This document shows positions 5,744 to 59,747 of a stretch of DNA of 64,000 nt, in pieces. Origin of the DNA: Aurantiochytrium sp. KH105 (lineage: Eukaryota; Sar; Bigyra; Thraustochytrida; Thraustochytriidae); contig BGKB01000046.1 of the NCBI GenBank assembly GCA_003116975.1, positions 62,001-126,000 of the forward strand, in the 5' to 3' direction. The notes beneath the pieces are model-generated. The model was not told where the DNA came from and did not search any database. It saw nothing but the letters and a program-made list of their open reading frames with translations. Every line of letters begins with the position of its first letter. Position 1 is the first letter of the stretch. The position numbers and the translations under genes are program-made.

Positions 5744-5790
5744 GAAGTGAAGTATCGGCGCGCGCAAGTCGGGTATCGGCGCGCGCAAGT
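5744..5790 (+). promoter_or_regulatory. Tandem copies of the GCAAGTSGG-TAT promoter motif
   Basis: An 18-bp string (GTATCGGCGCGCGCAAGT) is repeated exactly at 5752-5769 and 5773-5790, a 21-bp period close to two helical turns. Read as overlapping sites, 5764-5779 is GCAAGTCGGGTATCGG and 5744-5760 is a looser copy. The same motif recurs upstream of unrelated genes at 6105, 41663 and 59575-59747. A protein-binding element is an inference from recurrence. Confidence 0.5.
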
Positions 5791-6104
5791 GCAGGCCGCG
5801 GGCGGGGCAAGTCGGGCAGGCAGGCAGGCAGTCAGTCGAAGTCGACGCGGAGAGGCACCGCTCGCACCGCCTCGCGTCTCGCCCTCCCTCCCTCCCGCCC
5901 CTCGCCGAGCAGCTCGCTCCTGCACCGCGCCGCGCGCGCGGGCGATCGAGCGAGCTCAGCGCGGCGCAGGGGCGCGCAGACCGACGCGCGGTCGCGTCAA
6001 CGCTGCGCGCGGAAAGCTCGAGGGCGCGGCGCCAGGCCAAAGGGAAGAAGGGAAGAAAGGAGGCAGGGAAAAAGAAAGAGGGGAGAAAGAAAGGCCCACG
6101 GGAG

Positions 6105-6120
6105 GCGATAGCCCACTTGC
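6105..6120 (-). promoter_or_regulatory. GCAAGTGGGCTATCGC motif copy
   Basis: On the minus strand this reads GCAAGTGGGCTATCGC, 635 bp upstream of the ATG at 6755. Extended with its GC flank it shares 19 bp with the copy at 41666-41684. A further GTGCAAGTGC lies just downstream in the opposite orientation (about 6131-6140). Confidence 0.5.
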
Positions 6121-6754
6121 GCGCGCGCTGTGCAAGTGCAGCAAAGGCGGCGGCAAGCGCGACAAGGCGGAGCGAGAGGGCCGGAGAAGAAAAGCGTCTC
6201 GGCAGACAGACACACAGAGACAGAGACAGAGGGAGGGAGAGACAGACACAGAGAACAGGAAAGAAGAAGGAAAGAAAGAAGGGAAGAAGAAGGAAAGAAG
6301 GAAAGAAAGAAAAAGGAGAAACAGCAGACGCGAGAGAGCTGCGCGAGCCCGGCAGGCGCGGGCTTGGAGCGGCGGCGCCAGGCAGGCGCGGGCAGCGCGG
6401 GGCGACGCGACGCGCACCACCCCGTCCCCCCTCCCCGTCACCTCCGGCCTCTCCGCCGCGGCGGCAGCGCCCAGCGGCCTTTCGTTCGCTCGTTCGTTCG
6501 GTTGCCCGCGCGGGGCCGGCCGCGCGGAGCGCTGTAGCTAAGTAAGCAAGCAGGCAGGCAGGCGAAAAGCAGGAGCCTGCTTCGCTCGACGACTCCTTGC
6601 CTAGCGCGCGCGCGGGAGAGAGCGCGCGCAGAGTCGCAGGGACGCCGCGCGGAAGCACGCGGCGCGCGCGCTCGCTCGCCGCGGAAGCGGCGGCGGCGGC
6701 GGCAGGCGCCCGAGACGGTCGCGCGCGCGCGAGCGAGCGACGGAGGCAGCAAGC

Positions 6755-8116
6755 ATGGACAACTTCTCCGCGGACCTCTTCAACGACGACGACGAGTTTC
6801 TGCTCCCGTCCACAGAGGCAAAACCGCCGCCTGGCAATCTGCGCAGGGCGCGCAGCAGCGAGTCGATGAACGTCCTCTTGGAGCAGCTCAAGTCCGAGGA
6901 TGATCCGCTCATTCGCCAGGTGCTACGGTACATGCTTGACGAGTCGCTATCATTAGCAGCAGCTGCAGACAAGATGGACGTCCCCAAAAGCTCCTTCTCC
7001 GGATGGGTCAAGCGGCGGACTTCGAACACCGCAAAGTGGGCCCACCGCAAAAAGGTCGAATCCTATCTTAAAATTCACGCATCTCCGGGGGCCCTCGCCG
7101 CCGGCGCATCCAGTAGCTCCTCCTCCAGCTCCTCCTCGTCATCATCCAGCAGCTCCAGCGCCAACAGCAACAAGCCCGGAACCAATACAGCTGCAAGTCT
7201 GGGACCCAATGACCTCGACCTCAACTCGAGACCTTTCGGAGCCGGGCCCGACGCGACAAACTTCCTCGACGACGACGACTTCTTTGCCGACATCCCTGAA
7301 GACTACGAGCTCTTCGGCAACTTGCTCCCGTCCCTCGAGCCAGAAACCAAGCTCGACGGCCCAACGCCCCCAAAGTCGACCAACAAAACATCCGGATCAA
7401 CACGCAAGTCGTCACCGGTCAACGGCCGCAGCATCGAGCGCACCGCAAGCCAACGAAGCGCCACCTCGAATAAGTCGTCCATTTCCATGTCCAAGGGTAC
7501 CTTTTCATCCTTCTCCTCCTTCTCTTCTCTCGATCCCGCCGAGCTCTCCGACTCACGCCAGAATTCACCCGTGAAAACGGAAGGCGCAGCCGGGACCTCG
7601 ACGGCAAAACCCACGAAAAAGAGGAAAACAAAGGCGAAGTCCACAAACAAGTCCGAGGATACCAAACCGCCCAAAGCAAAGTCTACAAAAGCAAAAGCAA
7701 AGTCGACCGCCCGTAACTCGTCCCGCCCGACATCTAGAGCCCCGTCCCCGACTCCGCCCACGGCGGCATCGGCGACAGCGGGCCCTACAGCTGCAACGGC
7801 CGCTTCGATGAACGGCTCCAATCCGACCGCCGCGACGCATGCGGCCAGTGCGAAGGCTGCGCCTTCCGCTGCAAAAACTTCGGCCAAAGCCAACGCCTCG
7901 GGATCGAGGCCACCCAAATCGCGTGCCTCAGCGACGGCTTCCTCTGCGCACCCGTCGCGACCCCAGCAGCCTGTGAAACAAGAACACATGAAACAAGAGC
8001 CCAACACCGCCGCCAATCTACACAGGATACCGTCACAAAAGGATAGCTCACCTCGTCACGAGCTACTTGCTCAACACAAGAATGCGCATCCTTCGTATCC
8101 TGCTCAACAACACCCT

Positions 8117-8149
<33 letters not shown>

Positions 8150-10483
8150 GTAGGGCGTGTGAAACAGGAGCAAGTCAAACAGGAGCAAGTCAAACAGGAG
8201 CAAGTCAAACAGGAAGTGAACAACCAACCCTCGAACGCGCAGACCCCGGCTTCGTCTCATCAGTATCTAGGAGGGCCACCCCAAGGCACCAATGGGAGCG
8301 CGGCGCATCCCTCTACATACACACAATATTCCAGAGGCGCGCCCCCTCCATCTACGGCACGTCCTCATGTCTCGCAAGCCCAAATGCCACAGTATCAGCA
8401 CGATCACCCACATGCCTATCAGCATCCGCAGCAGCAGCAACAACAAATGCCGTCGCAACAACAGCGAACATCCTCTATGCCGGCGCGTCTTCAACACCCT
8501 GGTGCTAATCCTGCGGGGCCGCCCTACGCCGCCAATGCTGGCTCTGCATCCCTTGGCAACCCCGGTCCACGGGGGACGCCTTATCCTTCCACAGGACCTC
8601 CGCACGCCGGGCCGTCCTCAGCAGCCTCGGCGGGACCGCCGCGGCCGAACTCGTCCGCGTCAACGGGAGCCAGGCCACCTTACGCGCCTCCCTCTGCGGC
8701 TCATCGGAATATGGCTCCGGGCTACACGCAGCCGCATCCTACACACGCAGCTTCTGCCGCATCTGCGCACCCTGCGCGCGGGCCTCCGCCCTCCCATGCA
8801 GGCGGCTATCCGCCCAATAGTCCCAAGTATGCGAGGCCGCACCCTGGTTCGAATGCAGCTGCATACGGTGGCGGCCAATATGGATCATACAATGCGGCCG
8901 GATCAGGTGCCGGCCCGGGTTACTATGGTGAACCGTATCCTTATGCGCCGCCACCTGCTCAAGGTGGGCCGGGACCTGGTCCTGGGGGCTCCGTCAGCCG
9001 TCATCCTTCCTCCGCATACGCTGATTCCTACAATACGCAAGGACATCAGGGTCGCCCCGTGCCCTCGCAACACCCGCAGGCGCACCCGCGCCCCACAAGT
9101 GCGCACCCCTCGGCATCGGGACCTGCGCGTGGGCCTTCCGGTTATCCGCCGCATGGAGGCCCTGGAGTTCAACAACAGCCTCCTCAACAGCAGCAGCAGC
9201 AGCAGCAACAACAACAACAACAACAACAACGAAGCCAAGGAGGTGGAAGTGGTGGCAGTGGTGGCGGATCAGGCCATTCGTCAATTCGCCACCCACCTGG
9301 CAACGCTTACAATGGCAATACGGGCGTGGCGCCCACCGGACGTGGCGCCCAAACGGGCCCGGGCGGGAACGCCTCTGCAGGTAGCGGTGCCTCTGCTCCA
9401 AGCGTAAAATCAGCTGCACGTGTGCCCTCTTCAGCCGCGGGTGGCAATAACGCAAGCAGCGGAAACGCCGGGAACGCTGGGTACCCCCCAAACAACGGCC
9501 CGCAGCAGTCATCCACGAGCTATCCGTCTCCACCTGGAGGGCCCCAGGCGACCCCGGGAGCCAACAATGAGGGTCGCAGGGACAACATTGAATTCCTTCG
9601 TCGTAATCTTCTCGAGGTAACTCCTCAAACCCACCATCAGGAGATTTACGACATCACGCAGGAACATGAGCGCCGTCAACAGCAGTTGCAGCGGGTCGAC
9701 GTATCCATGGATGAGCGCCAAAGGATATCGCGAGAGCAATCGCGCCAGCTAATCCATCAGCTTCAGGCCCTTTGCGGATCGGAGCATGTGAAATTTGCTT
9801 TGAACAAGCTTCGCGATCGCCGTCACATGCCTCCACCTTCAGCGACGACCTCTACCGGCCCCACTTCGCGCTCGGGCCTTCATCCTCCTCGCGGAGGCGC
9901 AGGCCCTGTGCGCTCGGCCTATCCTCAAGGCTCCTCGGGCAACACGCCCTCATCGAGTGGTAACACGGGTCGTAGCCACCAACAACAGTACTCCTCGTCG
10001 GGCCAAGCGCCTTCAGCCTCAGGATATCGCCCAAGCAATGCAAATGGTTCCAGCAGTGTGACTGCGAGCCCAAGTCTCGGTCCCGTTTCGGCTAGACAAG
10101 CTGCGAGGCATCCTGGTCCGCCGATGAATTCGAGCGGGCAACCACCATCCTCGGCTCCGCCTCAACAGCACCAGCACCAGCAACAACAACAACAACAACG
10201 TGCAGGGAACCGTCCAAAGCTTGACCTAGCTCATTCGATCGATGTTTGGAACCACGCCTGCAAGTGCAAGGAAGCAAATTGTTCGTGGCCGCACTGCAAC
10301 TCCGTCAAGCCCTCTGTGATTCACCAGCGCGAGTTGCAGGCGAGTAACCAAAAGGGTCCGTGTTCTCGCGACTGTAGGCATTGCATGATTTACCAGCGCT
10401 TGACAAATTACAGCCGTCAAAGACGCAGAAATCAACAAGCGCAGCCCGATCAGCGACAGTCACAATACAACCAGCAGCAGCAG

Positions 10484-10519
<36 letters not shown>

Positions 10520-12022
10520 AAAGGGCAACAGGGCCAAGGACAGTACCCGAACCAGCACCTACAGTCGCGTCCACCGTACGGGCACCATCAAAGCGCGCGC
10601 GGTCCATCCGGACCAGGTCCTTCGGGAAACCCTCCCGGTGGGCATTCTTACCCAGATGCCATGCGCTCGACTCATCCGTACGCCAACGCGCATACGAGTG
10701 CGCGTCCTCCGGCTCCATCCTCCGCCAATGCATCCGGATATTCTGGCACCAATAGCGGACCAGTGGATCCTTCGCGTGACCATTATGCGCCTGCGCCCTA
10801 TGGCTCAAATCCCAATGGTTCTGCCGGTGGTAGCAACTCTTACCGTGGACCCAGTCAGAGGGGCAGTGGACCTCCACATGGAAACGCCGGCTCCAGTGGT
10901 GGCAACGGAGGCGCCTATGGTGCCAGTCGGCACGCGTATGCAAACGCAGATGCGAGGCCTCCACGAAGCAGCGATCCGAGATACAGCGCAGAAAACCCCT
11001 CTGCTGCGGGAGGATGGAACAGTCAGCATGGTCAGCCGACCTCGCAAGCCGGAAGACCTCCCCCATCGAATCATCGCCCCGGCGGCGCGCCGTCCGAGTA
11101 CGGCGCTCACGGGAGTCAATTGTCACGGACACCTTCGTATCCAAGTAGTGCTCAGTCCGGACCCTCTCCAGGATCATCGTACGGCCACCCTGGTGATGGG
11201 ATGATGCAACCGCACGACTTGCGCCGTCATTCGAGCGGTGCAGCCTCGAGCTCGCGACACAGTGCGGTTGACCTCACGGGAGATGAGCTCAATAATGGAC
11301 GGAAAACACCAGCAAGCACTTGCTCTGGTGGTAAGCGGGCCGCCATGGACCCGCAGCAGCCTGCGCCGCCTGGAGAGCTCAAACGGCGAAAAACAATGGA
11401 CGGCATGGACGATCTCTTGAGTGGCCCACCCGGGTCGATGCCGCCAAGCCCGGATAAATCAAAGGGCATGAACCCGGACAAGTCTGGTCTCAACGTTTCC
11501 CCTCACAAGCCGCTGCAGCAGCACCCGAGCACTTCGCCCCAGTATACCTCGACCAAGGTCGTGTACGAAGGGGCCCCAGCTCCCGACCCAAAGGTCACTG
11601 TGAGCTTTGGGCCTGGAAGTGGGTCAGGTCATGGAGGCCCGTTGACCTCGCAGCCCGTTCCTGCCCCCGGTGGACCTCCACGAGCAAGCGGCCGCGGCGC
11701 TACGGCCAACGCTGGTGGTGGTCCTGGACCGCGTTCCGTACCGCCGCTCAGCGCAGGCGTGCGCGGTCCTCCAGGGGGGGCACAACCGGGGCCAACTGCT
11801 GCCGTCGACCACTACAATGCTGGGTACCATCCACAGCAAGTGCCAGTGATTTCTGACGGCAACGGGTCTCTCCTTTGCGTGGTGTGTCATGACCGCGATC
11901 GCAAGATGCTCTTCACGCCATGCCAGCACATCTCATGCTGCGAAACATGCGCGAGTAGTATCGACGTGTGCCCCATTTGCCGCAGTCGCATCGACTCCAA
12001 GTCTCACGTTTACCTGTCATAA
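6755..12022 (+). CDS. Large low-complexity nuclear regulator with HTH-like, TAZ-like and RING zinc-finger domains
   Basis: A 1755-residue protein in one open frame with ATG in good context (A at -3, G at +4). Near the N-terminus (about residues 48-108) is a helix-turn-helix-like segment (L...M..S.FS.WVKRR). Most of the chain is Ser/Pro/Gly/Gln-rich, with several polyglutamine runs. A small folded segment lies at about 941-1030. A TAZ-like zinc finger lies at about 1156-1222: HACKC, then CSWPHC, then CSRDCRHC, close in order to the CBP/p300 TAZ finger but with shorter spacing. The C-terminus (about 1707-1750) is a C3HC4 RING finger (CVVC...C.H..CC..C......CPIC). Four tandem VKQE motifs (469-487) and others near 271 and 407-413 fit the sumoylation consensus. 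A KRRK basic motif suggests nuclear import. The likely role is a transcriptional co-regulator and/or E3 ubiquitin ligase; no substrate can be named. Confidence 0.85.
8159..8215 (+). repeat. 15-bp coding repeat specifying four VKQE sumoylation-type motifs
   Basis: Within the TAZ/RING gene, the 15-bp unit encoding VKQEQ is repeated four times (V469, V474, V479, V484). VKQE fits the psi-K-x-E sumoylation consensus. The codons are nearly identical between units, so the array probably arose by recent tandem duplication. Confidence 0.85.
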
Positions 12023-35241: not shown

Positions 35242-37323
35242 GGCGCGATCCGTTGTCTGGTCTGGTTTGCATGCGCGGATTGTATTCTCGTCGTCCTTTC
35301 TTCGAACTTTGCAACTACTAGGCCTACTGAGCACATCTTGATGATCTCGATCTGCCACTGATGAAAAGCAGCAAGTTCAGGTTGCGACAGATGATGATGT
35401 ATAGGTAGGTCCCACCCAGTACGCGGGATATCGCGTTCTCGCACGAGAGTAGCCGACCGCGCGACTCCTTTGCGTCGTCTTGCCAGATAGACGACTTGGT
35501 TGACAACAGCGCATCGTCAATAACGCTGCAGCTGGCGCGCGAGCAAGCACACATCCATTCCTATCACTCGCTCATTCAGTCATTCATTCACCACCGGACG
35601 CCATCCACCACCCGCCGGCGTGCCTTCCGGATCCGTCCGTTCGTCCATTCGCCATCGATCGATCGTTCGCCCGTGCTCCGTTCGTCCGTTTGCTCGGCCC
35701 GTTCGTCCGCTTGCTCGGCGGCCAGGCTCGTGTGCAGAAAGTGCGAAGCGCCCGGACGTTCTGCACCAACCAACAAAAGCGATTACCGAGTTGAAGCCGG
35801 CTGCAGCCTGCACTGGCCGAGACGAAGCAGTCAGCAATGCAACAAAAGCTGCGAGTTCAGCCAACCAAGTTGTGGTTGAAGCCGGCCTGGCTGAGACGAA
35901 CCAATCAGCAGCAGCTCTGCCAGCGGCACTGATGTCGATCCACTCGTCCATCCTTGCGCATCTCGGTCTCTTCCTTTTTTGTCTCTTCTAACTAACAGTA
36001 ACAATAACAACGAGAAAAAGGCTCCTCGTCGCGTCACCTCCGCCTCGAGGACCCCGGGTCCGCCAACCTCGTCCAGCGAGACGAAGCAGCGTCTGCGGAC
36101 GCGGACGCGCGCGCACAGGTCCTTGCGCTCCCCCTCCTCGCCCGCCAGGCTGCCGCGCACGTGGACCCGCCAGCTTGAGCATCTTGGTTGTGAGTTCAAC
36201 TTGGTCGTGCGTCTGATCTCAGTTCATCTCATGTCGCCTCGCCTCGCGTCCAGCGGGGACGGCGGAGAACGGCCGCGCTGCGGTCCGTGCTGCGGTCCCC
36301 TTCTCGTCTGCGCGCTGCTCCCGCTGCCCCTCCCCGGCCGGCCAGCCAGCCAGGCGCGCGCGTCGCCTATGCCAAGTCTCCGGCAGCCTGCAGCTGGCTG
36401 CTCGCGCCAGCTCCTCTGCACGCGCTGCGCCCGGCCGCCGCGGCATGCGCGCATGGCAGCAGCTGCTGCTGCTGCTGCACCTGCGCTGCGCCTGAGGCCG
36501 CCAGCCAGCTCGGCCTCCCGGGCTCGCTGCGTCTCGGCCTCCGTCTCGGCCTCCGTCTCGGCCTCGGCCGGGAGCGAGTTACCCTGCACAGGGAGGCGCG
36601 AGCTGGCCTCGAAAGAAGAGCTCGCGCGCACACGCCGCGCACATAGAGACCCCGGCAGACGTCTAACGCAGCGCAGACTTCAGCCGCTCGACACCTTCGA
36701 GACAGACGCCGCGTCCACGAGCGAGGAAAGAAAACTGTGCAGGACAGTGCACTGCGCGGTGTCCATCCTCTCGTCCTGCCTGCGCTGGCGAGGGAGCGGG
36801 GAACCGGACGGCGCGGTCCCAGGACCCCGGAGTCGGGCTCGCGAGCGAGGACACCGGATCGACCGATTCGAGCGATTGGGTTTCCCAGCGAGAGAGGGAG
36901 AGAGAGAGAGCGCGGAGAGCGCGGAGGCAGACCGCCAACGCGAGCGACCGGGCCTGGCTGGGCCGCGCCGCGCTCCTTGCTCTGCGCTCCTCTGCGCTCT
37001 GCGCGCGGCGCGCGCGAGAGAGGGGGCGAGAGACCTGCGTCTGTCTGTCTGTCTGTCTGTCTGTTGCGTGCGTGCCGGGGGCGCGCGCGATCAGCGGCTG
37101 AGCGCGCGATCATCGAGGCTGAAAACGCGCGCGCTCGCTCCCTTTAGCAGCCTCGCGCAAGAGAACTTACCTGCAGCACGAGGCAGACGCCCTCGCGCAC
37201 GAAGGACCGCGGAGCGGGACGACCGGAGGGCCGGCGGCCTGGCCGCGCCGCAGATCCCCCCCTTCCCCCCCTCCCCCGCCCGCGCGGCGAGACGGAAGCA
37301 GATTAGATTAGACGACCAGGACC
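35242..37323. other. Divergent upstream region of the TIR-like/TPR and choline-transporter-like genes
   Basis: Two kilobases without a credible gene. It contains an imperfect duplication (35766-35910), a CTCGGCCTCCGT 12-bp tandem (about 36533-36570), CTG and CTGT runs (about 36467-36480 and 37036-37066), and a C/G-rich block just before the ATG at 37324. A long plus-strand frame (about 35979-37367) has only low-complexity Arg/Ala/Ser content and is rejected. Confidence 0.6.
35766..35910. repeat. Imperfect tandem duplication of about 73 bp
   Basis: Both copies contain CAAC..., then GTTGAAGCCGGCYTG, then GAGACGAASCARTCAGCA. The second copy has lost about 10 bp in the middle. Confidence 0.65.
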
Positions 37324-39261
37324 ATGACCGGAGACAGGACGCAAGGCCTCATGGCCGTGGACCTTGAGAGCGAGGAGGCCAACGAGCACGCGAGGACGTC
37401 CAGAGTGGAGCCCGAGTCGGGGCTGCAGTCGTCAATGCGCGGCCGCCAGGTCGGGTCTTTGCGCGCGATGATGAACAACCAGCTGTCCGTCAAGTCGCTC
37501 ATCTCCCAGATGAGCGCGAACCCGCTCAAAGAGGTCATCACGCCGAAAATCGAGTTCAACGACCGCGCCTGGCGCGTTGCCAAGTTCGACTACCTATTCG
37601 CAATCATTTTTGTCGCAGGCCTCTTCTTACACTTTGGCCTGGGCGCTATGATCATCCACCAAACCAACACCTTTCACAACTCCACCGGGAGCTACCTCAC
37701 CGCCGAGGCAAGAGCGCAGTATGACTCTTGCCAGCTTGCGCTAGCAGAGATCTCGCAGTCGAACGCGACCCAGATTGATGATCGCCGCCGCTTCCGTCGC
37801 CTCGCTGTTGCTGCGTCCGCCACGGGCTCGGACACCATCAACGATTGCACAACGCTGTGGTGTGTCATGGATCTCTCCAACTACTTGACCATTACCACCA
37901 TGACGGTGGCCCCCATCGTCGGAGCACTCTGGACCTTTGCGCTGTACAAGCTGCCGCGCGGAAGCTCCTGGGGCGCCACGCTCTGGTTCCCCGTTCTATA
38001 CATTTCCGTTGCGATTGCACTCTTTGCCAACACGGAAGGCACGACCATTCTTGCGGCGCTCTTTTTCGCCGCAGCGAGCGTTCTCCTCTTGGTCCTCTTC
38101 TTCACGCGAGAACCTGTCCACGCCATGGGGGACCACCTGCGCATCGCCACCACGGTGCTATTCCAGAACTTTTACATTTTCCGCGCCATCTACCTCCTCC
38201 TCATGATTATGTGCCTTTTTCTCGCCTGGCACTGGGCAGTCGTCATGCGGACGGCAAACGTGGTCGAGTTCGCCGTGCATAACTCGTGCGAAGCCACCAC
38301 ACCGCACCACATCAAGGCAGCGACCACGTATTTGTTTTTCTACATGGTCTGGTTCGTCTCAACATGTAAGACCGGGAAGCTCGTCATTATCAGCATGTGC
38401 GTGGGCTCATGGTTCCTTCAACAGGTCCCCGTGCCCCCTCGTCCAGAAATGTCGGCCTTTTGCACAGTCATGACCACCAGTATCGGCACCGTTGCCGGTG
38501 GCTCTGTTGTGACCGAGTTCGTCGACTACCTCGTCGAACGCAACGGTTCGCGCTTCTGGTGGCTCGATCCGTTGGGCTTCATCATTCGCCCGCTCAAGTG
38601 CGCTTTCAGCCGCTGCGTAACACCCTTCACTCGCTTCAGTATCATCGCGCACGCCTTTACGGGCGAGGGTTTCGGTCCTTCTGCGTACCGATCCACCAAG
38701 CTGCTGCAGCGAAATTTCACAAATGCATATGTTGCCGACCGCATTCTCATCTCGGCTGTACGCACGGGCAGCAGCGCACTCTCCATCCTCATTGGCCTCA
38801 TCGCCTGGATGCGAATTGATGGTGTGAATGGATGGAATTCGCTTTCCAACGCCTCGGATAGCAGTGGCGTCTTTGGCGGTATTGGCGGTCTGCTTCTTTT
38901 TGTCATTACGGCAGTTTACGTGGTTCGTCGCCCGCTTCTGGGGCTCATGCTTCTCGCGCTCTTTAGCGACACGATGATTGTCTGGCTCAGCGGCTCTGTT
39001 CTTGTCTTTGCGCCTTTTGCCGGTGTTTTTGTCGCATGTGTATCCGCGGTGATCATCAACTTCCAGGGCGACTTTGTGCTCAACACCATTGACACAATAT
39101 TCATGTGCTACGCTGTTCTCAAAGATTCAAATGCGGAGGTCTTGCTCACACCCGAGCGCATTGACGCGCAGGAATATGTCGACTCACTTCCTGCCGTCAA
39201 ACCAGAGCACGATCGATACGAGGACCTATCGTCGTCACAAAGCGTCGACAGCGACGATTAA
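37324..39261 (+). CDS. Choline transporter-like protein (CTL/SLC44/Pns1 family)
   Basis: A 645-residue multi-pass membrane protein. A soluble N-terminus of about 85 residues precedes TM1 (about 88-110). A loop of roughly 75 residues, typical of this family, leads to about nine further hydrophobic segments. Family hallmarks are the block IAHAFTGEGFGPSAYRSTKLL followed by RNF.....DRI, and the late motif DTIFMCYAVLKDSNAEV, equivalent to the conserved D..F.CY..D of CTL proteins. CTL proteins move choline, ethanolamine or related solutes across plasma or organelle membranes (family knowledge); the substrate here is not shown. The cytosolic C-terminus is Asp/Ser-rich. The ATG lies in ACCATGA. No intron is seen. 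Confidence 0.8.
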   Translation: MTGDRTQGLMAVDLESEEANEHARTSRVEPESGLQSSMRGRQVGSLRAMMNNQLSVKSLISQMSANPLKEVITPKIEFNDRAWRVAKFDYLFAIIFVAGLFLHFGLGAMIIHQTNTFHNSTGSYLTAEARAQYDSCQLALAEISQSNATQIDDRRRFRRLAVAASATGSDTINDCTTLWCVMDLSNYLTITTMTVAPIVGALWTFALYKLPRGSSWGATLWFPVLYISVAIALFANTEGTTILAALFFAAASVLLLVLFFTREPVHAMGDHLRIATTVLFQNFYIFRAIYLLLMIMCLFLAWHWAVVMRTANVVEFAVHNSCEATTPHHIKAATTYLFFYMVWFVSTCKTGKLVIISMCVGSWFLQQVPVPPRPEMSAFCTVMTTSIGTVAGGSVVTEFVDYLVERNGSRFWWLDPLGFIIRPLKCAFSRCVTPFTRFSIIAHAFTGEGFGPSAYRSTKLLQRNFTNAYVADRILISAVRTGSSALSILIGLIAWMRIDGVNGWNSLSNASDSSGVFGGIGGLLLFVITAVYVVRRPLLGLMLLALFSDTMIVWLSGSVLVFAPFAGVFVACVSAVIINFQGDFVLNTIDTIFMCYAVLKDSNAEVLLTPERIDAQEYVDSLPAVKPEHDRYEDLSSSQSVDSDD

Positions 39262-40300: not shown

Positions 40301-41434
40301 TTACATCTCGGGCATCCCCGGCATGGGCTCCGTAGGTCCATGGCTGAAGCCCTGCTGCTGGTTGGCAGTCGTGGTGCCGCGAGCCACAGAGGTGGACACC
40401 ATAAAGGTAAGAATGTACTCGGAGACCGTAGCAGGAAAGAGGATGAGCTTGATGATAAAGGGCAGCTTCGTGTAGAGAAAGAGCTGGCCGTAAATACCGA
40501 GACCAGCAAGCAAAAAGGCAGTGGCATCGTCAAGGTAGCCGTCACTCAAGTAGTGAAGGTTGCGAGCCTCGCACCAGCGCGTAAAGGCGTCGGTGGCGAT
40601 GCGGGCGCCGTTAAGCGCAGTGTGCACGGTCGAGAGCACACGCTGCACGGAAAAGGCGATAGAGATACCGATCATACGGCAAATGTACCGCGTGACGACA
40701 GGAATCCAGGGGTAGTAGTCCTCATCGACAATGTTCTTGATCGTCGGGCCCGTTGCCTTGAGGATTGTCGTGGAAAGCACGTTACCAATGGAGACACCCA
40801 GACTGAGCGCGCGGGCGAACTTGACCTGCAGCGTGGCAATAACCATGGCGAGAATCTGATACAACCGGCCGAATGCCGCAGAGACCTTTTCGGGATCGCA
40901 CGAGCGCAGAAAGAGGCTGACCTTGCGGACCGTGAGCTCGGCCTGCGAGATCTGGTTGACGTCCGCAACGCCGTCGCCATCCTCGTCGAGCTGGTCGTCC
41001 GTACGGTTGGCATCGCGAACAGAGGTGGCCTGTTCGTGGAGCTCTTTGATGGCGTGGACGAGGTCCTTGCGGCCACCCTGGTCGATGGCTTCGAGCGTAG
41101 CAATCGTTGAAATGTAGGATCCGCCAAAGAACATGAGCGCGAGACCGTACAGCATGCCCATGATTTCCTTAGGGCCGTAGGGTTCGAGGGCAACCAAAAA
41201 CTCCTCGTACGCCTCGTTGGCCATCTTGACGTACGGCATGACGAAGAGCACCGCGGCCGCGATACTTTCCTCGATCTTGAGCACAATCGGCACGACCTGG
41301 GTCAGCCTGTCCGTGAACGTGGGCGCGCCCTCGTCCTCGTCGGTCTCGGCGCGCTTCGACCTGCGCTTGCGCGCCTTGGGCGTCGCCGCCTGCATCAGGC
41401 TGTCGAACATGGACTCTTCCGCTTCGTCGCCCAT
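40301..41434 (-). CDS. Uncharacterised membrane protein with a DxDGDG calcium-loop-like motif
   Basis: A 377-residue protein I do not recognise by family name. The ATG at 41434 (A at -3, G at +4) follows an Ala-rich spurious extension. After a basic N-terminus (KARKRRSKR) there are hydrophobic segments near residues 60-75, 100-120, 220-245, 280-300 and 330-365. Between the first two groups lies a soluble helical segment containing DEDGDGVADVNQ (about 145-156), which fits an EF-hand or thrombospondin-type-3 calcium loop without a clear partner hand. The C-terminus is Gln/Pro-rich. A minus-strand copy of the shared GCAAGTGGGCTATGGC motif lies 229 bp upstream. The regular hydrophobic/charged pattern and long helices argue that the protein is real. 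Function unknown. Confidence 0.75.
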   Translation of the reverse strand: MGDEAEESMFDSLMQAATPKARKRRSKRAETDEDEGAPTFTDRLTQVVPIVLKIEESIAAAVLFVMPYVKMANEAYEEFLVALEPYGPKEIMGMLYGLALMFFGGSYISTIATLEAIDQGGRKDLVHAIKELHEQATSVRDANRTDDQLDEDGDGVADVNQISQAELTVRKVSLFLRSCDPEKVSAAFGRLYQILAMVIATLQVKFARALSLGVSIGNVLSTTILKATGPTIKNIVDEDYYPWIPVVTRYICRMIGISIAFSVQRVLSTVHTALNGARIATDAFTRWCEARNLHYLSDGYLDDATAFLLAGLGIYGQLFLYTKLPFIIKLILFPATVSEYILTFMVSTSVARGTTTANQQQGFSHGPTEPMPGMPEM

Positions 41435-41662
41435 CGTGGCGCGCCTGCCTCCTGCTCCTGCCCCTGCTGCTGCTGCCCCCGCTGCTGCTGCTGCTGCTGC
41501 TCCGCGTCCGCCTCCTCGCTCTCGTCCTCGTCCGTCCCGCGCGAGCTCGGCCAGAAGTAGGTCTGCGCTGGAATCCTGCCGCGTCCAGGCTCCCTCCCTC
41601 CCTCCCCGAATCACTCGGGCCCGACTTCAACTGTGGCTGACCGCAGCCTGAGTGCCGCCGCG

Positions 41663-41678
41663 GCCATAGCCCACTTGC
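41663..41678 (-). promoter_or_regulatory. GCAAGTGGGCTATGGC motif copy
   Basis: Reads GCAAGTGGGCTATGGC on the minus strand, 229 bp upstream of the membrane-protein ATG and co-oriented with it. With flanks it is identical over 20 bp to 59611-59630, an unrelated promoter 18 kb away. The 19 bp 41666-41684 are also shared with 6108-6126. Confidence 0.55.
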
Positions 41679-42222
41679 GCGCGCCATTCCGCACTTGTGC
41701 ACACTCTGGCCGGCTCTGTCTGGCCGGCCGGCCCCGGGTTTCTATACTCGGATGACCGCTGCGCTACGTACGCATCCTGCTAGTAGGGCTCGCAGACGTA
41801 CTGCAAAGTGCAGCCAGCAGCCAGAACAGAACCAGCGTTTGTCATGCATGTGTGTTAGTTTGTTTGTGTTTGTTTGTTTGTTTGTCTGTTTGTCTGTCTG
41901 CTGCAGCTGCCTCGCTTGCACGTGCGGCCCGTACCTCCGGCACCCGCTCACTCGCAGCCAGGGCCACGCGCGCCGCCCCGCGTGCGGCCCTCCCGGCCGC
42001 GCGCCCCGCGGAACGGCACAACCCCGCGCGAAGAGGACCGCGAGGGCGGCGCCGTCGCGGTCTACATCGACCCCAAGAAAACGCGCCCTCTCTTTTCCCG
42101 CCTGCTCCTCGCCGCCGCTGCGAATCGAAGCGCGGCTGTGGATGAGACGCAGCAGGAAGTCCAGTGTAGTAGTAGGCCTATGTGGCGCTCGACCCGACTT
42201 GCCGAGTTGAGCTGACTTGGCT

Positions 42223-42286
42223 GCGGCGGTTTTGCGCGACTTGCGGCGGTTTTGCGCGACTTGCGGCCTGCGTTTTTGCGCGACTT
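42223..42286 (+). promoter_or_regulatory. Three tandem GCGGCGGTTTTGCGCGACTT units
   Basis: Two perfect 20-bp copies (42223-42242, 42243-42262) and a third, slightly longer one ending at 42286, about 210-275 bp upstream of the ATG at 42498. Each contains TTTTGCGCG, similar to E2F-type sites, and GCGACTTGC, which overlaps the CAAGTSG core of the shared promoter motif. A regulatory role is inferred. Confidence 0.5.
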
Positions 42287-42497
42287 GAGGGAGAGGGAAA
42301 AGCAGCGCGAGCACGAGCAGCGCAAGCAGCGCAGGCAGCGCGAGCAGACGGCCAGCCGCGAGGAGCGCAGCGACGGCGCCCGCGCGCGCAGGCAGCCTGC
42401 GCGCGGCGAGGGAGGGCGCGGCGAGGGCGGCGGCGGAGCGTCCGCCCCGAGCGGAGACCGCCCGGCGAGGCGCGGCGAGGCCCGGCGCGGCGGCGAG

Positions 42498-45400
42498 ATG
42501 GAGCTGGCGGAGACCAAGGCGCGGCTCAGCGAGGTCGTGGACGAGGTGCTCTTCCTGGAGGGCGAGGTCTCCGCGCGCAGGCGCGAGGTGGAATTCCTCA
42601 AGCATGCGCTTGCGGACAGCACGGCCGCGCACGGAAGCGCGATCCGCGCGCTCACGCAGGAAAACGCGCAGGTGCGCCGCAAGGCGGGCGGCGCCAGGCA
42701 GCAAGCGCCCGTGCGTGCCGCGCTCGACGACCTTCGCAAATTCCAGCAGGGCCTGCAGCGCCTCCTCGTCGAGGCCAGACTCGACCTCCCCGCGGCAACC
42801 TTCACGCCGTCCGCGCCCGCAGCGATCGCGCGAGACGCCGTCGACCTCGGCGACGAGGATGATGACCACGATCACGACCTAGGCCATGGCCTGGGCCATG
42901 ACCACTTCGCAGCCGAAAGGCCCAATGCCAACACCGCAGGACCTCTGGCACTGTCCTCGTCCGCGGCCAACGCTTCCCCGCGAGATGCAGGCGACCTGGC
43001 AAAGGAGCGCGCCCGCGCCCGAAAGCTCGCTGCGCGCGTTCAGGAACTCGAGACGGAGCTCCGCCGCGCCAAGGCGGCGCAAGTTTGGCCCTTCAAAGAT
43101 GACCACCGCAGTGAACTCGGGGCCTTCGGCATGAGCACTAACTCGGATGCAGCGACGGCAGAGGCAGAGGTGACTCGTCTCAGGCGCCGTCTCCAGGAAC
43201 AAGAGGCCGACTTTGAGGAGAAACGCCAGAACATCTTGCGCCAAACCGAGTCCGAACTGCGCGACGCCGAGCGCGAAATTCAACGTCTTCGCCGTGCGGC
43301 CGGCAAAGGACGCGCGGGTGCCGCCGCGGCCGGCTCGTCGCCCACCTCGGAAATCGTTTCCACCGCGTCGCCGCGCCGTCGGGGAAGCGAGGCCGTCAGT
43401 ATTGGGTCGCGCGAGAGCACCCCCACTTATGACCGCAAGCGACTTCGCTTGCGTGGAATGCGCGTAAACGAGGACGGGAGCGTCGACTTGCACAATGCAG
43501 CAGACCCGGCTAATAACGCGCCAGCTGGGCGCTCGCGTCGAGGCTCCGGCGCATCCGGTCTCTCCATGAACTCGTCCTCCACCGCGCGCCGCGCCTCCGC
43601 CGAAGACGGTCCCGAAATCATGGGCCGTCTTCGGGACCTTGAGCGACGCCTCGTCACAGAGCGCAAGGAAAATGAAAAGTTGCGCCGAGCGCTCCGGGAT
43701 GCCCAAGACTCCAGTGACCGGGCCCAAGCGTCCATGGACGATCTTGCACTAGTGCACGGCATTGGGCAGGAAGAGATGGAGACCGAGCGCCACCAACGCC
43801 GTGCGCTTCAATCGCAGCTCGAAAAGGCACAGCGTGATCGCGAGGTGACCATGCGCGAGATCCGCGCCGCCGAGCGTCGCCACAGTGCTCTCATCGACGA
43901 AATGAAGCAGGTCATGGAGGAGCGCGATCGCGCCGTCGCCAACACCGACGACGCCAATCGCAAGTACCTGCAAGGTCTCCACGATCTCGAACGCGCGAAA
44001 ACCGATCTGCAAAGCGCAGAAACGGCGCGTCGCAATGCCGAGGATGACAAGAAGCGTCTTGAAAAGGACGTTCAAAACCACTCGCGTAACCTCGAGGCGG
44101 CCCGCCGCAAGCTCGCCTCCTCGCAGCAGGACGTGGCCATTCTCGAACAGCAAAAGGACACACTTGCCATGGAGCGCGATGCCGCCCTCCGCGAGCAAGA
44201 GAACGCCATGAAGCGTCTCGACCAGGCTCTTGGCGACCGCAAGAATGCCTTGCAGGCACGAGATAAAGCCTTTCAGGGATCGTCATCCTTGGAGAATGAG
44301 AATGCACGTCTCAAGATGCNTGCGCTGGAAGACCAGCCCACGCCCCGGGCGCTCGCGGACCGCGACGCCCCGGACGCTAGCACGCTTTTGGAAGCCGAGC
44401 GCGAAAAGTCGCGCCAGCTCTGGGAACGTATCGACGAGCTCGAGGTCTCTCTCGCAGCACTCGAGGACGAGAAACAGAGCCTCGAAGCCGCGCAGGACGA
44501 TGCGGCGCTTGGGGGCGTGCACATGGTGCGCACCCACAAGACCAAGCTCATCGCCCTGTCCCGACACCTCTCCGAGCTGCACGAGGGCGTCCGCGCGCGT
44601 CTCGTGGCCCTTCGAGACGCCACCTCTGACAACGAGAGCCCCCGTGCGAATGGCGAGGGCAAGGGTGACTTTCACGGCATCAACGAGCCAAGTGTCAGTA
44701 CCGCAAGCGCCTCGCAAAGCTTGCGCGACATCATTCAGATCCTTGTCAAGCAGGCGCAGGCTGCTCTCGCCGATGGCAAAAAGGAAGAAACCGGTATCCG
44801 CGCTCTCTTGGAGCTCTCGGCCCGCTCGACGTCGCGAGCCGCGCGTCTCCGCGCCGAGGCGGACGGTCTCGCCGCCAACGACTTTAGCGATCTTGAGCGA
44901 GAACGCAAGGCTTTGCTGGCGCAACTCGAGGCAGAAAAGGACCGGACGGCCTCTCTCGAAGAAAAAATCACCCGTCTTAGTAAGCGCAATGACGTCGATG
45001 CTGACCACGAAGAGGTGGGCCAGGCCATTGGCGACGAGGACGACCTTGGCCTTGTCGCTCGCGTTCGCGAACTGGAACACACGCTCGAGGGCGAGCGCGA
45101 CCAGCTACGCGAGGCGCTTGCGCGGCTGCAGCAATCTGACGAAAAGGTCGTCGAGCTCAAGCGAAAGCTTCGCACCAATCTGTTCGAGATGGAGCGTTTA
45201 GAGGCCGAGAGAGATCGTCTCGTGGCGCGTGTCGAAAATGCATCGACTGAGCTTCGTGGCGTGGCCAGTCAAAAGACCAATGCTTCGCGGGAGTTGGAAG
45301 AGGTCTACCACTCGCTCACGGACCTGGAAAAGCAGCTTGTAGCCTCGCATGCAGAAAATGCACGACTTAAACGTGTGCTTGCCACCTCGTCATCGTCGGG

Positions 45401-50800: not shown

Positions 50801-53800
50801 GGCGGACGAGTCGCCACGTAGAAGGTGCGGATCATTCTCTGCATGAAAGATGAAATTGTTGACGTCAATGGACGACTTTCCCGATGTGAGGACGCGCACT
50901 GCATCTGGGGAAGGAGGCCTTCTACCCCCTGGAGAGCCATCGCGACTGTGTACACTTCTAACCGGTTCTTCGCGCGAGTAGCCTCTTTCATTTGAAGCGT
51001 CTAGTGCGCCTGGGATCGAAACATGCGTTTCAGTACCGAGAGGTCCATTGCTCGATTGAGCCAAAGACAACGAGTCGAGATAGGATTCGTCAACGGACGG
51101 CCCTGCGAGCGAGGAGACAATTTTGCGAATGAGGTATCCACGAGCATGCGCCTGGATTCTTCTTGCGCTCGCCTCGCGTTTCTTGAGCTGGTACGCGGGC
51201 ATCAGAGCCTCTGCCTTACGAATCTCCTTGAGAATGAGAGCATTGTGCGAAAGCTGCCGCTTCAGCTCGAAAGCCTTTTGCTCTTCCAGAGAAAATGAAG
51301 CTCGAAACGAGCGTCGCGCCATCTCGATCTCTGCCGTAGACAATGTCGCACCACGTGAGATGGGGCGTTCAAGAGAATATCCGCTCCCATCGTGGTCATC
51401 TTCGGCCTCGAGACCGTGCAAGAGGCTTGACCTGCGCTGGCCTCTGAGCGAAAGACGACTCTCGCGACGTAATTGTGATTCTCCGGTACGACCGGGCGTA
51501 TCTGTAGACACGCCTTTGCTTTGCGTTTCACTCTGCTCTTCCGCGCGCTGTGGTGGGAACATAATCTGATCAAAGAGCGAAGTACGACGCTCACCGGGCG
51601 AAGAGCCGCCGCCCGCCTGTCCAGGAGACAAAAGTGCTGCCAGCTCGAGCGACCCGAGACCTGGGTCAGCACCGGGCCCTGATGACGTGGCTGACAAGGT
51701 CGTGGGGTCTACAATCGCCGGCGGTGGATCTCCGGGCTTTGGGACCTCCTGAACAAAAAGAGGTTCGTCGTCCTCACCACCTTGAACCCAGACAGCAGGG
51801 TCGTGGCTTGTGACAGAAACAGAGGACTGGTAGGACTGCAAGTCGTCATCCTCATCCTCCTCGTAATCGTCATCTCCTTCTTCTTCCCCTACATTCGCTC
51901 CGCCATCGTCGTCTTGATCAAGATGACCCTCAGAATTCCGGTCGTATCGGACGTCCGTGTTCTTGTTGGTTTTCGTGGTCGCGATGCTCGCTGGAGAAAT
52001 AGGACTGCGGTCCCTGGGACTCTTTCCTGTCGGAGAGGCGACGCTGCTCCGTCGGCGTTCACTTTGAGGAGATTTTGGCGAAGTGACACCTTTGTCTCGC
52101 TTCGTCCGATTTACAAATATGGAGCGCTTTCCTCGGCGCCCAAAGTCCTTGGTCTGAAAGTGATAAGGGTCAACCTTTTCTGTCGGGCTCGAGCGTTGTG
52201 GCAAGTTTGATGATTCGACTGTTATGTCAGGGGCTGACATGTACCGCGGACGCTCCGTCGCAATCCAATGCATGTCTGGAAGATCATCGAGAGCCTTGGC
52301 GACGGGCACGGCCATGTTCTTGATCGTTTCACGCCGCTCCAATAGTCCTATATGATCGTGGTCGTCGTTGGTGATTCCCGTAAAGCTCGTCAACATTCGA
52401 AGAGGCCGAGGCTTGAGAAGTCGTACGACAATACCGTGAGGAGGCTCGATTTGCACAGTCGTCGGAGTCACAGGTGAGGAGGGAGAAGGGGAAGACGAGG
52501 GCGACACCGGTGATGCGGCACTGACCGGGGACCCTGGCTCGGACAAAGAAGGCGGCGGCGATGAGGGTCTTCGCGGAGAAAAGGTGGCCCATGTCTCGTA
52601 GCAGTTTACCAAGTATTCGAGAATCTCTGCCTGGGGAAACATTGGTCTCAGCGTCACGGCCTCACAAAGGTCATCTGCCAATTGGACTGCATGCTGCAGC
52701 CTGTGCTGCCGAGGAATTACGGCGCGAATAGCGGCAACAAGTACATCAGTGGGTGGAGGGGGGTCTTGCCGAGAAGTGAAGAGATGCGGTACATAATCAA
52801 CGCCTCGGTTGATGAGCTGCTGAATAATGTCGACAAAAAAGTTCGCCGAAGAAGGCTTGCGACGATGTGGCCCAGAGAGCACAAAACAGAGAAGGGTACG
52901 ACACGGCAATACCGAGGCAGCGTATGCGCGAAGTGCGTTGAGGAAGGAGAGGACGCGTTCGGCCACGACCTTGCACATTTTAGCATCCTTGCCGAAGCGA
53001 TGCAAATGCCATTCAATGACGCAGCGTGACATGGACACGCGAGGACGACCTTCGTCATAGGCCAGTGCGTCAAGCATGACTTTTTGGGCGACAACGGAAC
53101 GAATTCCTCGGGTCACAGAGATAAGCGGTAGTGCACGTATCCGGAGCGAGTCTCGGCTGGCCTGAGAGGCGCGTTCTCCGTAGCGCGAAGCAAAAAGTCT
53201 TGCAAAGTGTTGAGGAAGCGCTGCAAGCTCGCGCCCGGGGACTCCGCGATACTTGTGGTTGCCCAACGCCTGCGGAGCGTGCGTGTCAACCTTTACGTGG
53301 GCATCCCAATGCAATCTTCCAGGGGCGGAGATCTTGTCTGCGACATTGACCACTGATGGGAAGCTTTTCTCGCCTAGACTGTTGTACGTGATGATCGTTC
53401 GTGTCGCACACATGTCTGCGTATTTGCGCGGTGCGTTCGAGACACGAGACCGAGCCGCAGCATTCGTTTGGACGCCCTTTTTAGCTGTCTTTTGCGCCAT
53501 TGCATCCCTACGCAAAAGCTGTTCTGCACTACGAGCGCGAATGGGTCCAAGAAGTTCGTCCGCTTCGGGAGAGCCCATAAAGACGTCAGCGATGGCCATG
53601 GTTTCGTGAATACTGAGAAATGGCCCGTCCAACGGCACTTGCGCTCGCGCTGCAACAGGTTGAATATGAGCCCATGTAATTCCGGCCCAGCCAAGCGATG
53701 ACAGTATTTCCGGCAGACTTTCTAGGGGAGCAATCGATATCTTGTCGTCGACGGTGGCTTTGGCGAATGAGGCCCGGAGCACATCAAGCTGCACGGGCAT

Positions 53801-56791: not shown

Positions 56792-58018
56792 GTTGCGCTT
56801 CCGTGATTATGCGCTGATCGAGTCGAGTGGAGACGAGACGGCTGAAGCCGACGTTTCTTTCCTTTGGCGGCCGACACGCGACGCGTGCGCGCGCGTGCGA
56901 GAGATAGAGAACGGGAGAAACGGAGAAGGAGCACTCTTGTGTTTGTGCTAACTTAGGAGGACCGTGAAGACTGGTCAATGTGTCCTTGCATGTGAGAATG
57001 TGAGCAGCTCGCGGTGCACGTGAAGCAACGATCCCAGCAAGCTCGCGCCCCCTGGCTCGATCACCGCAGCAGCAGCGAGCGAGCGCACTGCCTCGAGGCG
57101 AGCACGCGTTGAATTTGACAATAAAGCCAAAGGTGAAAAAAAGGCCAAGCCGCCGTTTGTAAAAAGCATCAACGGACCCCAATTATTCGGCGCAAAATGG
57201 CGCCGAAGTATGTTTTCTCTCTTTGTCTCTCTGCCTGGGCGCTCGAGCCACCCTGTATGTGTTGCTCTGCGTGCCGTTTACTGCGTCTGCGTGCGACAGA
57301 AGCGATGACGAGGGAGTTGATGGGACTCGTAATTGAAATGGATACCAATTTGTTTTTTGTTTTTGTTTGGCAAGAAACTTCAAACGAAGGAGCTTGTAAC
57401 AGCGAAAAGCAAAGAACGAAGCATTTGCAAGCTCTTTTCTCGTGCGATACTGATTCTCTAGCAGATCGACAAATTGAACAACACATGCGCATGTTGCTTT
57501 TTTTCTTTAAAAAACTAGGTATAGCTGCGCGCTGAAGATGTCTGAGCGACATCAAACAAATGAATAAGAGCTTTGGCCGTTCCAATATTGCAGAGAAGAG
57601 AAGAGAAGAGAAGAGATGAGATGAGAAAAGAAATGAAGAATAGAGTAGAATGGACGGGTGCATTTCGTGTGGCCTGGAGTGATCGTGATAGTGAGAAATA
57701 GGTAATCGATCATGGGCGGGCGCAGTCACGCACGGCTGTGACTGACTGTAAACAAGCGATGGGATCTCCATGCCCAATGATGAAAAGAAAGAAAGTAAGA
57801 GAGAGCTCTCGGGCGGGAAGAGTCAGACAGTCAGCCAGCGTCCTTGACTCAATTTGACTTGACTTGACTTGACGTGATGCAAGTAAGAGTGCCCGAGGTC
57901 CGACAAATGTGAACCAAAAGCTGAAAGGTACCTTTCTGTCTGTCATCTTCGTGCGTCTCTGCCATTCTTTCTTGGGAGGCTGTCCTATTGCCTGGCTTTG
58001 TTGCCTGCCTGAATATGG
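56792..58018. other. Upstream region of the WD40 gene and 3' region of the SH3/LIM gene
   Basis: About 1.2 kb. It contains an inverted repeat (57186-57207), a GAGAA run (about 57595-57625), and a GACTT run (about 57850-57875). Open frames here lack domains. Confidence 0.6.
57186..57207. promoter_or_regulatory. Perfect inverted repeat TTCGGCGC-N6-GCGCCGAA
   Basis: Eight-base arms separated by AAAATG, about 395 bp upstream of the WD40 ATG. Each arm resembles an E2F-type half-site (TTCGGCGC). Function is inferred only from symmetry. Confidence 0.4.
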
Positions 58019-59314
58019 TCAGGTGGAAGATGTCTTGAGGGAATCAAAGAGCGGCTTGTCATCGACTTCGGCCTCGGGAGGACCAGAGCCCGCCGAGACG
58101 GGGACGACGGAGCCACCGAATCCGAAACCCTTGATACCAAAGCCCTGTGCATGGCACTTGTGGCAGTAAGGGAACTCGCCATGACCGCGCCACTCGCCCT
58201 GACGCAGAACGACGGAGCAGGTGGAGCAGCGAAAGCAATTGGTGTGGTACTCTTTGCCAAGTGCCTTGACCTTGTCTGCGAAGCCGACAATCTTGCCGCA
58301 GGTGGCGCAGCGTGAACCACCACCGAGATTGGCAAACTTTGCGTTGTACTTGAACTTCGTTTCCCGAGGCGGAGCCTCGGCCACGACCTCGTCTTCGGCG
58401 TTGGCAGCAGAGTCTGCATCTTCTTCGGCGTCAGCCTCGAAGGTGGCCTTAGAACTGGCCGCAGTGGATCTGCCAGTCTTGCGAGGAGGAACGGGCGGTT
58501 CGTCTGCAGGCTTGCCAAAGAAGTCGTCGTCGTCATCATAAGTTGACGCTTTCGGGGGCGGCGCAGGGCCAGGGGAGAAGCCGTCGAATCGCTTGGCGAC
58601 TGAATCGGCCTTGGCACGGACGCGGGCCTGGCCAGCAGCGACGCGCATGGAGGCGCGCTGGCTACGGCGTGCCTTACGCTCTTCCTCCATGCGTTTGAGG
58701 CGCGCGGTCTCAGCCTTGACGCGCGCGAGTTCCTCCTCGGCGACGCGAGCGCGCTCGGCGGCGGCGCGAGCCTCCTCGAGAAGGCGCTCCTTTTCCTCGG
58801 CCTCGGCCTTTTCCTTGGCGAGTTTCTTCTCGAGAGCCTTCTTCTCCTTTTCAGCATCCTTGAGGGCGCGCTGGGCGTCCTTGCGCATCGAGCTCCACCT
58901 CTTCTTTTCGGCCTTGGCGGCCTCAACGTCCTCGAGCTCGGTGCGCTCGACGTACGCGGATGGAAAGGTGCCCTCCTCTCCGGACTTGAGGCGGCCGACC
59001 CACCAGTCCGCGTTGAGCTCGCGAATGAGGGTGACGAGGTCGCCCTCCTGGAACGTGAGGTCGCCGTCGTTGACGCCCGCGTAGTCGTAGAGCGCCTTGC
59101 ACACGGGGAAGCTCGCGCCGACGCCGTCGCGGAGCTCTACGTAGTTGTACGGGAACTCGCCGACGTGGCCTTCGGCGTCGGACCCCTTCCACCACCCGTT
59201 CTCGTTCATCTCCATCACCAGCAGCACATCTCCGGCCTTGAACCTCAGGTGGTCATCGCGCAGCGGCTCGAAGTCGTAGATGGCCACCGCCAGGGTGCCC
59301 TCCTCGTCCGCCAT
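58019..59314 (-). CDS. Tandem SH3, coiled-coil, CRP-type LIM adaptor protein
   Basis: A 431-residue adaptor. Two SH3 domains sit at about residues 8-60 (AIYDFEPLRDDHLRFKAGD, WWKG, FPYNYVEL) and 67-125 (ALYDYAG..DGDLTFQEGD, WWVGR, FPSAYVE). A Lys/Glu-rich coiled coil (about 128-235) follows, then a proline-rich linker with PPVPPRK, itself a possible SH3 ligand. At about 333-390 is one LIM domain (CATC...H..CFRCSTC...C..C) followed by GFGIKGFGFGG, the glycine-rich tail typical of cysteine-rich-protein (CRP/CSRP) LIM proteins. SH3 and CRP-LIM modules act on actin and membrane-cytoskeleton sites (family knowledge). All eight zinc ligands appear present. ATG in AGCATGG. Its upstream DNA holds three strong copies of the GCAAGTGGG-TAT motif. 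Confidence 0.9.
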   Translation of the reverse strand: MADEEGTLAVAIYDFEPLRDDHLRFKAGDVLLVMEMNENGWWKGSDAEGHVGEFPYNYVELRDGVGASFPVCKALYDYAGVNDGDLTFQEGDLVTLIRELNADWWVGRLKSGEEGTFPSAYVERTELEDVEAAKAEKKRWSSMRKDAQRALKDAEKEKKALEKKLAKEKAEAEEKERLLEEARAAAERARVAEEELARVKAETARLKRMEEERKARRSQRASMRVAAGQARVRAKADSVAKRFDGFSPGPAPPPKASTYDDDDDFFGKPADEPPVPPRKTGRSTAASSKATFEADAEEDADSAANAEDEVVAEAPPRETKFKYNAKFANLGGGSRCATCGKIVGFADKVKALGKEYHTNCFRCSTCSVVLRQGEWRGHGEFPYCHKCHAQGFGIKGFGFGGSVVPVSAGSGPPEAEVDDKPLFDSLKTSST

Positions 59315-59574
59315 GCTTGCCTCGCTCGCTCCTGGCGCTTCACTCAGCTAGCTAGCCCTCGCTCGCTCCACGTCTCGCCGCGCGCCTCCCGCTCGCCCGC
59401 CTTCCCGCTCTGCCTGCGCGCCGCGGTCCTCGCTTCGGAGCGACCTCGCCGGGCCCCGACCTCGACTCGCTTTGCGCGTTCGCGCCCTTCGCGATGTGCT
59501 CCGCGCCCTCGTCCTCGTCCTCCTGCTCGTCCTCCTCCGCGGCACGCGCCGAGTCCAGGTCCACGTGCGCCGCG

Positions 59575-59629
59575 GCAAGTGGGTTATCGCGGCCCGCGGC
59601 CCACTTGGGGGCGGCCATAGCCCACTTGC
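59575..59629. promoter_or_regulatory. Inverted pair of GCAAGTGGG-TAT motif copies
   Basis: Plus-strand copy GCAAGTGGGTTATCGC at 59575-59590 and minus-strand copy GCAAGTGGGCTATGGC at 59614-59629, facing each other. Between them lies another CCCACTTG-like core (about 59600-59606). They lie 261-316 bp upstream of the SH3/LIM ATG. Confidence 0.55.
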
Positions 59630-59731
59630 GGCGCCGCCCCGCAAGTGGCCGCGCCGCGCCGGGAAGTCGGCAAAGCCATGGCATATACATACCTCCACGG
59701 CCGGGCGGGTGAAGTATAGTATGCGCCGGCC

Positions 59732-59747
59732 GCAAGTGGACTATAGA
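59732..59747 (+). promoter_or_regulatory. GCAAGTGGACTATAGA motif copy
   Basis: A variant copy differing mainly at the third G and the last bases, 418 bp upstream of the SH3/LIM ATG and pointing towards the anoctamin gene. Confidence 0.45.

Follow-up and report, generated by a model that had tools for sequence, protein, structure and literature searches.

A 64,000-nucleotide stretch of Aurantiochytrium sp. KH105 (contig BGKB01000046.1, positions 62,001 to 126,000; hereafter the window, at its full length) contains near-identical copies of a short motif, GCAAGTSGGNTATNG, in noncoding DNA upstream of three unlinked genes. What are these copies, and why do they recur in front of unrelated genes? 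An initial annotation of the window took them for a promoter motif of the transcription-factor type, and this is the reading best supported by our analysis, given an abundance above chance, clusters in noncoding upstream DNA and constraint on the core of the motif between two genome copies. The copies belong to arrays of 2-5 units with a centre-to-centre pitch of 21-22 bp, i.e., two helical turns, and the pitch is alike whether units point the same way, face each other or stand back to back. The unit, its pitch, its three orientations, its upstream position and the constraint on its core are established here. The arrays are likely homotypic, helically phased sites of one sequence-specific DNA-binding protein, present at many promoters of functionally varied genes.

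Abundance and form of the motif

Exact copies of GCAAGTSGGNTATNG occurred in the window at 5764(+), 6106(-), 41664(-), 59575(+) and 59615(-); a further copy, at 59732(+), has one mismatch. The copies reported initially are real, and their minus-strand positions were off by one base. Two longer identities that had been pointed out, one of 20 bp between 41660-41679 and 59611-59630 and one of 19 bp between 6108-6126 and 41666-41684, were found correct by eye, and a looser copy, placed here at 5743, proved to be a weak unit (score 6) in register with the others. Allowing up to two mismatches, the window held nine matches, compared to a mean of 1.92 and a maximum of 6 in 100 shuffles. Across the whole assembly (76,034,492 bases in 367 contigs), we found 286 matches, split 141 to 145 between the strands, while the backwards pattern gave none; from base composition, an estimated 4-5 matches would be expected by chance in 76 Mb.

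We then extracted 10 kb around each of the first 20 separate places in the list of matches; these 20 seed loci were selected for the motif and not for spacing. These loci contained extra copies of the core, [CG]CAAGT[GC], around the exact sites, and GCAAGTSGGNTATNG turned out to be one form of a broader unit, approximately GCAAGTG-S-R-S-H-A-T. Among the first 88 in-register pairs, GCAAGTG was followed mostly by S, then by G or A, then by S, and the tail ended most often in AAT (23/88), TAT (20/88) or CAA (9/88). A common form of the unit is GCAAGTGGGNTATNG, and the tails CGGAAT, GAGAAT and CGCTAT were at least as frequent as GGCTAT; the consensus given initially thus stands as one form and is too narrow as a description of the whole.

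Besides selected tails and GC-rich spacer words, what remained enriched beside the arrays was CACAGTG/CACTGTG, with 8 occurrences against 0.7 expected within ~150 bp of exact sites at L009-L048, in a comparison of many words. This word may represent a partner site or a truncated unit.

Spacing and orientation of the units

In the 20 loci and the window, distances between same-strand cores peaked at 20-24 bp, with a mode of 22 and echoes at 42-44 and 64-66, while the starts of facing pairs were 24-27 bp apart and those of back-to-back pairs mostly 17-18. When the unit centre is set at the T of GCAAGT, the start distances of all three kinds of pair reduce to one centre distance. Among pairs within 36 bp in 41 sequences, this distance was 20-24 bp for 62 of the 75 same-strand pairs, all 12 facing pairs and 16 of the 19 that stand back to back. 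The tandem and inverted pairing noted in the initial annotation proved to be the key clue, as it reflects this 21-22 bp pitch.

To score arrays we used a model that chains units at 20-24 bp. Since its unit matrix was trained on the same loci that were scored, held-out loci, where spacing was counted without the matrix, are important. The same peaks were seen in 20 held-out loci. Two of these, L036 and L037, are second copies of the seed loci L020 and L019, and in the 18 independent loci left, among pairs within 36 bp, all facing (3) and all back-to-back (4) pairs and 22 of the 23 same-strand pairs had centre distances of 20-24 bp.

Pairs of the strict core GCAAGTG were also counted throughout the assembly, with all gaps of 0-30 bases included and the backwards pattern as control. 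Same-strand pairs numbered 1345 (control, 34), facing pairs 254 (control, 14) and back-to-back pairs 238 (control, 1). Among the pairs listed first, centre distances of 20-24 bp were found in 87 of 100, 43 of 50 and 37 of 50, respectively. Strict triples, which overlap within longer arrays, numbered 323 against none in the control. By hand count, the first 100 same-strand pairs represented ~57 separate in-register places, which extrapolates, very roughly, to 750-800 places with an in-register same-strand pair over both genome copies. Twelve arbitrarily placed 2-kb stretches contained 19 cores, all single and none paired in register; as so few cores in 24 kb would form few pairs in any case, this control is weak.

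With the array model, 40 arrays or strong single sites scored at least 20 in 264 kb and none did so in three dinucleotide-shuffled sets; 37 of the 40 had at least two units, merging into 29 clusters, and some loci had two or three arrays. Regulatory regions therefore carry several copies of the motif, above chance, as in a homotypic array of transcription-factor sites. Considering that the arrays sit in GC-rich stretches (GC content was 57.6% in 12 sampled stretches of the assembly), they might be put down to chance or to the composition of GC-rich promoter DNA. This explanation is refuted by backwards controls of 0 and 34 against 286 and 1345, and by the lack of any array at a score of 20 in the shuffled sets, and its probability is next to nil. 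A hairpin RNA was also considered and dropped, as direct repeats outnumber inverted ones (1345 vs. 492).

Constraint between the two genome copies

The window has a counterpart on contig C86, at ~165880-220500, with 79-93% identity in matched promoter DNA. Counterparts of other loci were assigned from their position, with a BLAST check. Further contigs pair in inverted orientation (C3/C19, C16/C41, C6/C15 and C5/C21) or in the same orientation (C7/C10), and these paired, diverged contigs suggest either haplotypes that were kept apart or a genome of old hybrid or duplicated origin.

Across 17 aligned pairs, the GCAAGTG core differed at 18 of 1159 positions and its surroundings at 1815 of 25563, both counts being doubled because each pair was read in both directions. 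When in-register units at the 17 loci were compared in one direction, 10 of 546 core positions had changed (1.8%), compared to 33 of 537 in the linkers (6.1%) and 56 of 580 in nearby, composition-matched control 7-mers (9.7%). Sequence constraint was thus found for the GCAAGTG core. Among 56 pairs of neighbouring units, spacing was kept in 47 and changed in three (in one case from 24 to 62, where units had been added), and a unit was lost in six; flanking 22-bp windows changed length in 92 of 388 cases, a comparison in which the alignments, being anchored by units, may favour equal spacing.

Location relative to genes

Nineteen of the 20 seed places lay outside predicted coding segments, the exception being L022. 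The earlier statement that no copy falls inside a gene is therefore right for the window's exact copies but not for every copy in the genome. None of the 29 array clusters was in predicted coding DNA, and 21 of them were 150-1000 bp upstream of a predicted start, compared to a mean of 33% and a maximum of 62% in 1000 sets of random noncoding positions; this contrast is somewhat flattered, as random positions were drawn from whole loci, whose edges hide some starts. Moreover, 25 of the 29 clusters were closer to a predicted start than to a 3' end. The array clusters are thus concentrated upstream of genes and lie outside predicted coding DNA, as sites of a transcription factor would.

A Pfam scan was run on 20 proteins of 17 seed loci (all but L010, L020 and L025), some encoded by genes that are not nearest to, or not downstream of, the seed site. 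Matches were obtained for 13, namely a sulfotransferase, a GOST membrane protein, NOT3, a USP9X-like protein, an exonuclease with HRDC, a Cys/Met PLP enzyme, a kinase, a UFD1-like protein, a syntaxin, the V-ATPase d subunit, an LRR protein, a DEAD helicase and the beta-lactamase-fold protein of L022, which contains the coding site. These neighbours have no evident common function, and several are housekeeping proteins. In this motif-seeded sample, then, the sites stand upstream of many functionally unrelated genes, as do sites of general regulatory factors.

Neighbours without a common function would also fit sites of another kind, for replication initiators or for architectural proteins (insulators, chromosome organisers), whose position in promoter regions would be incidental; their phased units would then serve to load an initiator or a protein that forms filaments. 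Such phasing is reminiscent of iterons and of clusters of initiator sites, and origins are often located in promoter DNA. Against this, the clusters lie near predicted gene starts more often than intergenic DNA does in general (21 of 29 against 33% expected, and 25 of 29 closer to a start than to a 3' end), and some loci have two or three arrays; we consider this explanation unlikely.

Duplicated repeats or independent sites

Regular pitch could also arise if the arrays were minisatellites or the remains of mobile elements, the pitch then being the length of the duplicated unit. Some arrays do appear freshly duplicated, with near-identical units (e.g., C4:147170), and one array of the window, array D (described below), differs in unit number between the genome copies and has look-alikes on three other contigs. 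However, identity in the 13 bases following the core was 46% for neighbouring same-strand units and 43% for units of unrelated loci, and only 5 of 62 neighbouring spacer pairs were at least 80% identical. Spacing is therefore kept and sequence mostly is not, and since the spacers of neighbours are barely more alike than those of unrelated loci, the arrays are not minisatellites. Facing and back-to-back units hold the same pitch, and the core is constrained between copies, which likewise argues against duplication of a repeat.

As for mobile elements, a 601-bp promoter query matched, its counterpart aside, only partial stretches of 36-157 bp, some in the array and some elsewhere in the query; two other promoter queries, again with counterparts set aside, gave partial matches of 34-74 bp and none, respectively. 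No longer element shared beyond the motif was found with the three queries. On the spacer comparison and the promoter queries, both minisatellites and mobile elements were rejected, and we regard this origin as very improbable.

A probable phased array of protein sites

Homotypic sites of a single DNA-binding protein would account for these observations, and from the sequence patterns we infer protein binding, cooperativity and activation as putative properties of the arrays. Each protomer would read GCAAGTG, and perhaps also a short A/T step (HAT) approximately one helical turn away from the first base of that word. Protomers 21-22 bp apart would share one face of the helix and be in contact, and contact between neighbours could make occupancy cooperative whichever way the sites point. 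A filled array would probably keep the promoter open and recruit the transcription machinery, in the manner of general regulatory factors in other organisms.

Several observations weigh against this interpretation. The A/T tail had changed at 30 of 495 positions and the linkers at 67 of 1138 (counts doubled as above), so that the tail is no more conserved than the linkers and its role is doubtful. Same-strand pairs make up 73% of strict pairs (1345/1837), above the half expected without preference, and unit orientation is therefore not wholly free. In 6 of the 56 neighbour pairs a unit is missing from the other genome copy, and in the C86 counterpart of the window, two weak units have altered cores: the third unit of array B (6106..6167), with one core base changed while the two stronger cores of the array are identical, and one unit of array E (59575..59676), changed from GCAAGTG to GCAAGAG. 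Eight of the 29 clusters were not 150-1000 bp upstream of a start (six were farther and two had no start found), and the gene starts themselves were predicted with a small codon-usage model, for which we chose the training open reading frames (ORFs) from the window. Finally, the seed loci were selected for the exact motif, and the list of neighbouring genes is biased accordingly.

A more far-reaching and rather doubtful possibility is that the arrays mark a putative new class of promoter-defining protein, which would assemble in a row on a single face of the DNA, with neighbours two turns apart and with little regard to site orientation, and would mark several hundred promoters (perhaps also origins) in this eukaryotic lineage; it would be the lineage's own equivalent of general regulatory factors, equipped with a 21-22 bp ruler. 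In any case, a vague motif is replaced by a precise and testable promoter grammar of unit, pitch and orientation rule, found throughout the genome of an organism that probably does not belong to the usual models. An array could serve as bait for finding a candidate binding protein, a change of pitch could show whether the helical ruler decides promoter activity, and the two diverged genome copies provide a natural test of which bases matter.

Comparison with known systems

The core CAAGTG fits both the NK-2 homeodomain site (CAAGTG) and the E-box (CANNTG), but neither accounts for the leading G or the pitch. The 21-bp repeats of SV40, with their GC boxes, likewise form an array in GC-rich promoter DNA, at a pitch close to 21 bp; the arrays described here differ in that their word is another one, they are cellular and genome-wide, and their spacers are mostly non-repeated. 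To our knowledge, the motif is unlike the sites of Reb1, Abf1 and Rap1. Like the sites of these yeast general regulatory factors (see also PMC9481977), it is a short, specific motif upstream of many unrelated genes; unlike them, it occurs as several sites per promoter at a pitch of 21-22 bp. The helically phased homotypic clusters addressed by HeliCis (PMC2200674) similarly consist of repeated sites whose spacing follows the helix, whereas here one narrow pitch is found genome-wide and in all three orientations. General regulatory factors and phased homotypic clusters would thus appear to be the nearest ideas.

Genome-wide promoter motifs have been described in another protist, Phytophthora infestans (PMC3597505), and CAAGTG and CACTTG are absent from the main text of that paper as far as it was available. 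Topic searches, within the portion of the literature that they reach, returned nothing on this motif. In the same portion, the whole words GCAAGTGGG, CCCACTTGC, GCAAGTGG and CCACTTGC gave no relevant literature; occurrences of shorter forms were judged unrelated, and longer strings containing the core escape a whole-word search.

The triple-array pattern was found in 76 stretches of viral contigs and at least 113 of prokaryote contigs. We examined 156 loci (the 76 viral, and 80 among the prokaryote matches listed) with 302 matches. Of these, 237 fell within open frames of 300 nt or more, and in 238 the neighbouring spacers were at least 60% alike; by eye, among the matches listed, none of the remaining 64 combined a GC-rich spacer with the HAT tail. 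The viral and prokaryote triples examined look like repeats of other kinds, and we claim no relatives there.

Arrays in the window

Two arrays precede the RING gene that starts at 6755. Array A (5743..5821, + strand) has four units at a pitch of 21-21-22 bp, with unit scores of +6, +19, +9 and +14 and a total score of 46.5, and lies ~0.93 kb upstream of the start; it was outside the copy comparison, in which the C86 match starts only at ~5882. Array B, ~0.59 kb upstream, has units oriented -,+,+ at a pitch of 22-21 bp (score 41.6), the third being weak. The gene itself (6755-12016) had been called TAZ/RING: a C-terminal RING finger is present, while the TAZ assignment found no Pfam match at E 0.001.

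Array C (41664..41698, - strand) consists of two units 20 bp apart (score 31.1), both identical in the C86 counterpart, and is ~0.23 kb upstream of the start of a membrane-protein ORF at 41434 (-). Array D (42206..42288, - strand), upstream of a presumed ATG at 42498 (+), was absent from the initial annotation. It has four weak, divergent units with CAAAACC-like tails at a pitch of 24-20-24 bp (score 26.9) and more units in its C86 counterpart; its look-alikes, on C37, C105 and C44, are stretches of 67-74 bp with 85-87% identity.

Array E precedes the SH3/LIM gene, whose start at ~59314 (-) is ~0.26 kb away, and has five units (+,-,-,+,+) at a pitch of 23-21-22-21 bp and a score of 63.4, the last two units being weak. 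Its promoter is 90% identical in the C86 counterpart. A single unit, GCAAGTGGACTATAG (59732..59746, + strand), was recovered by both the pattern match and the array model and is identical in the C86 counterpart.

At locus L035, elsewhere in the assembly, a telomere-like run, GGTTAGGGTTGGGTTGGGTTT, is found right next to an array. The window also contains a choline-transporter-like gene at 37312-39258 and an anoctamin gene at 61466-63999.

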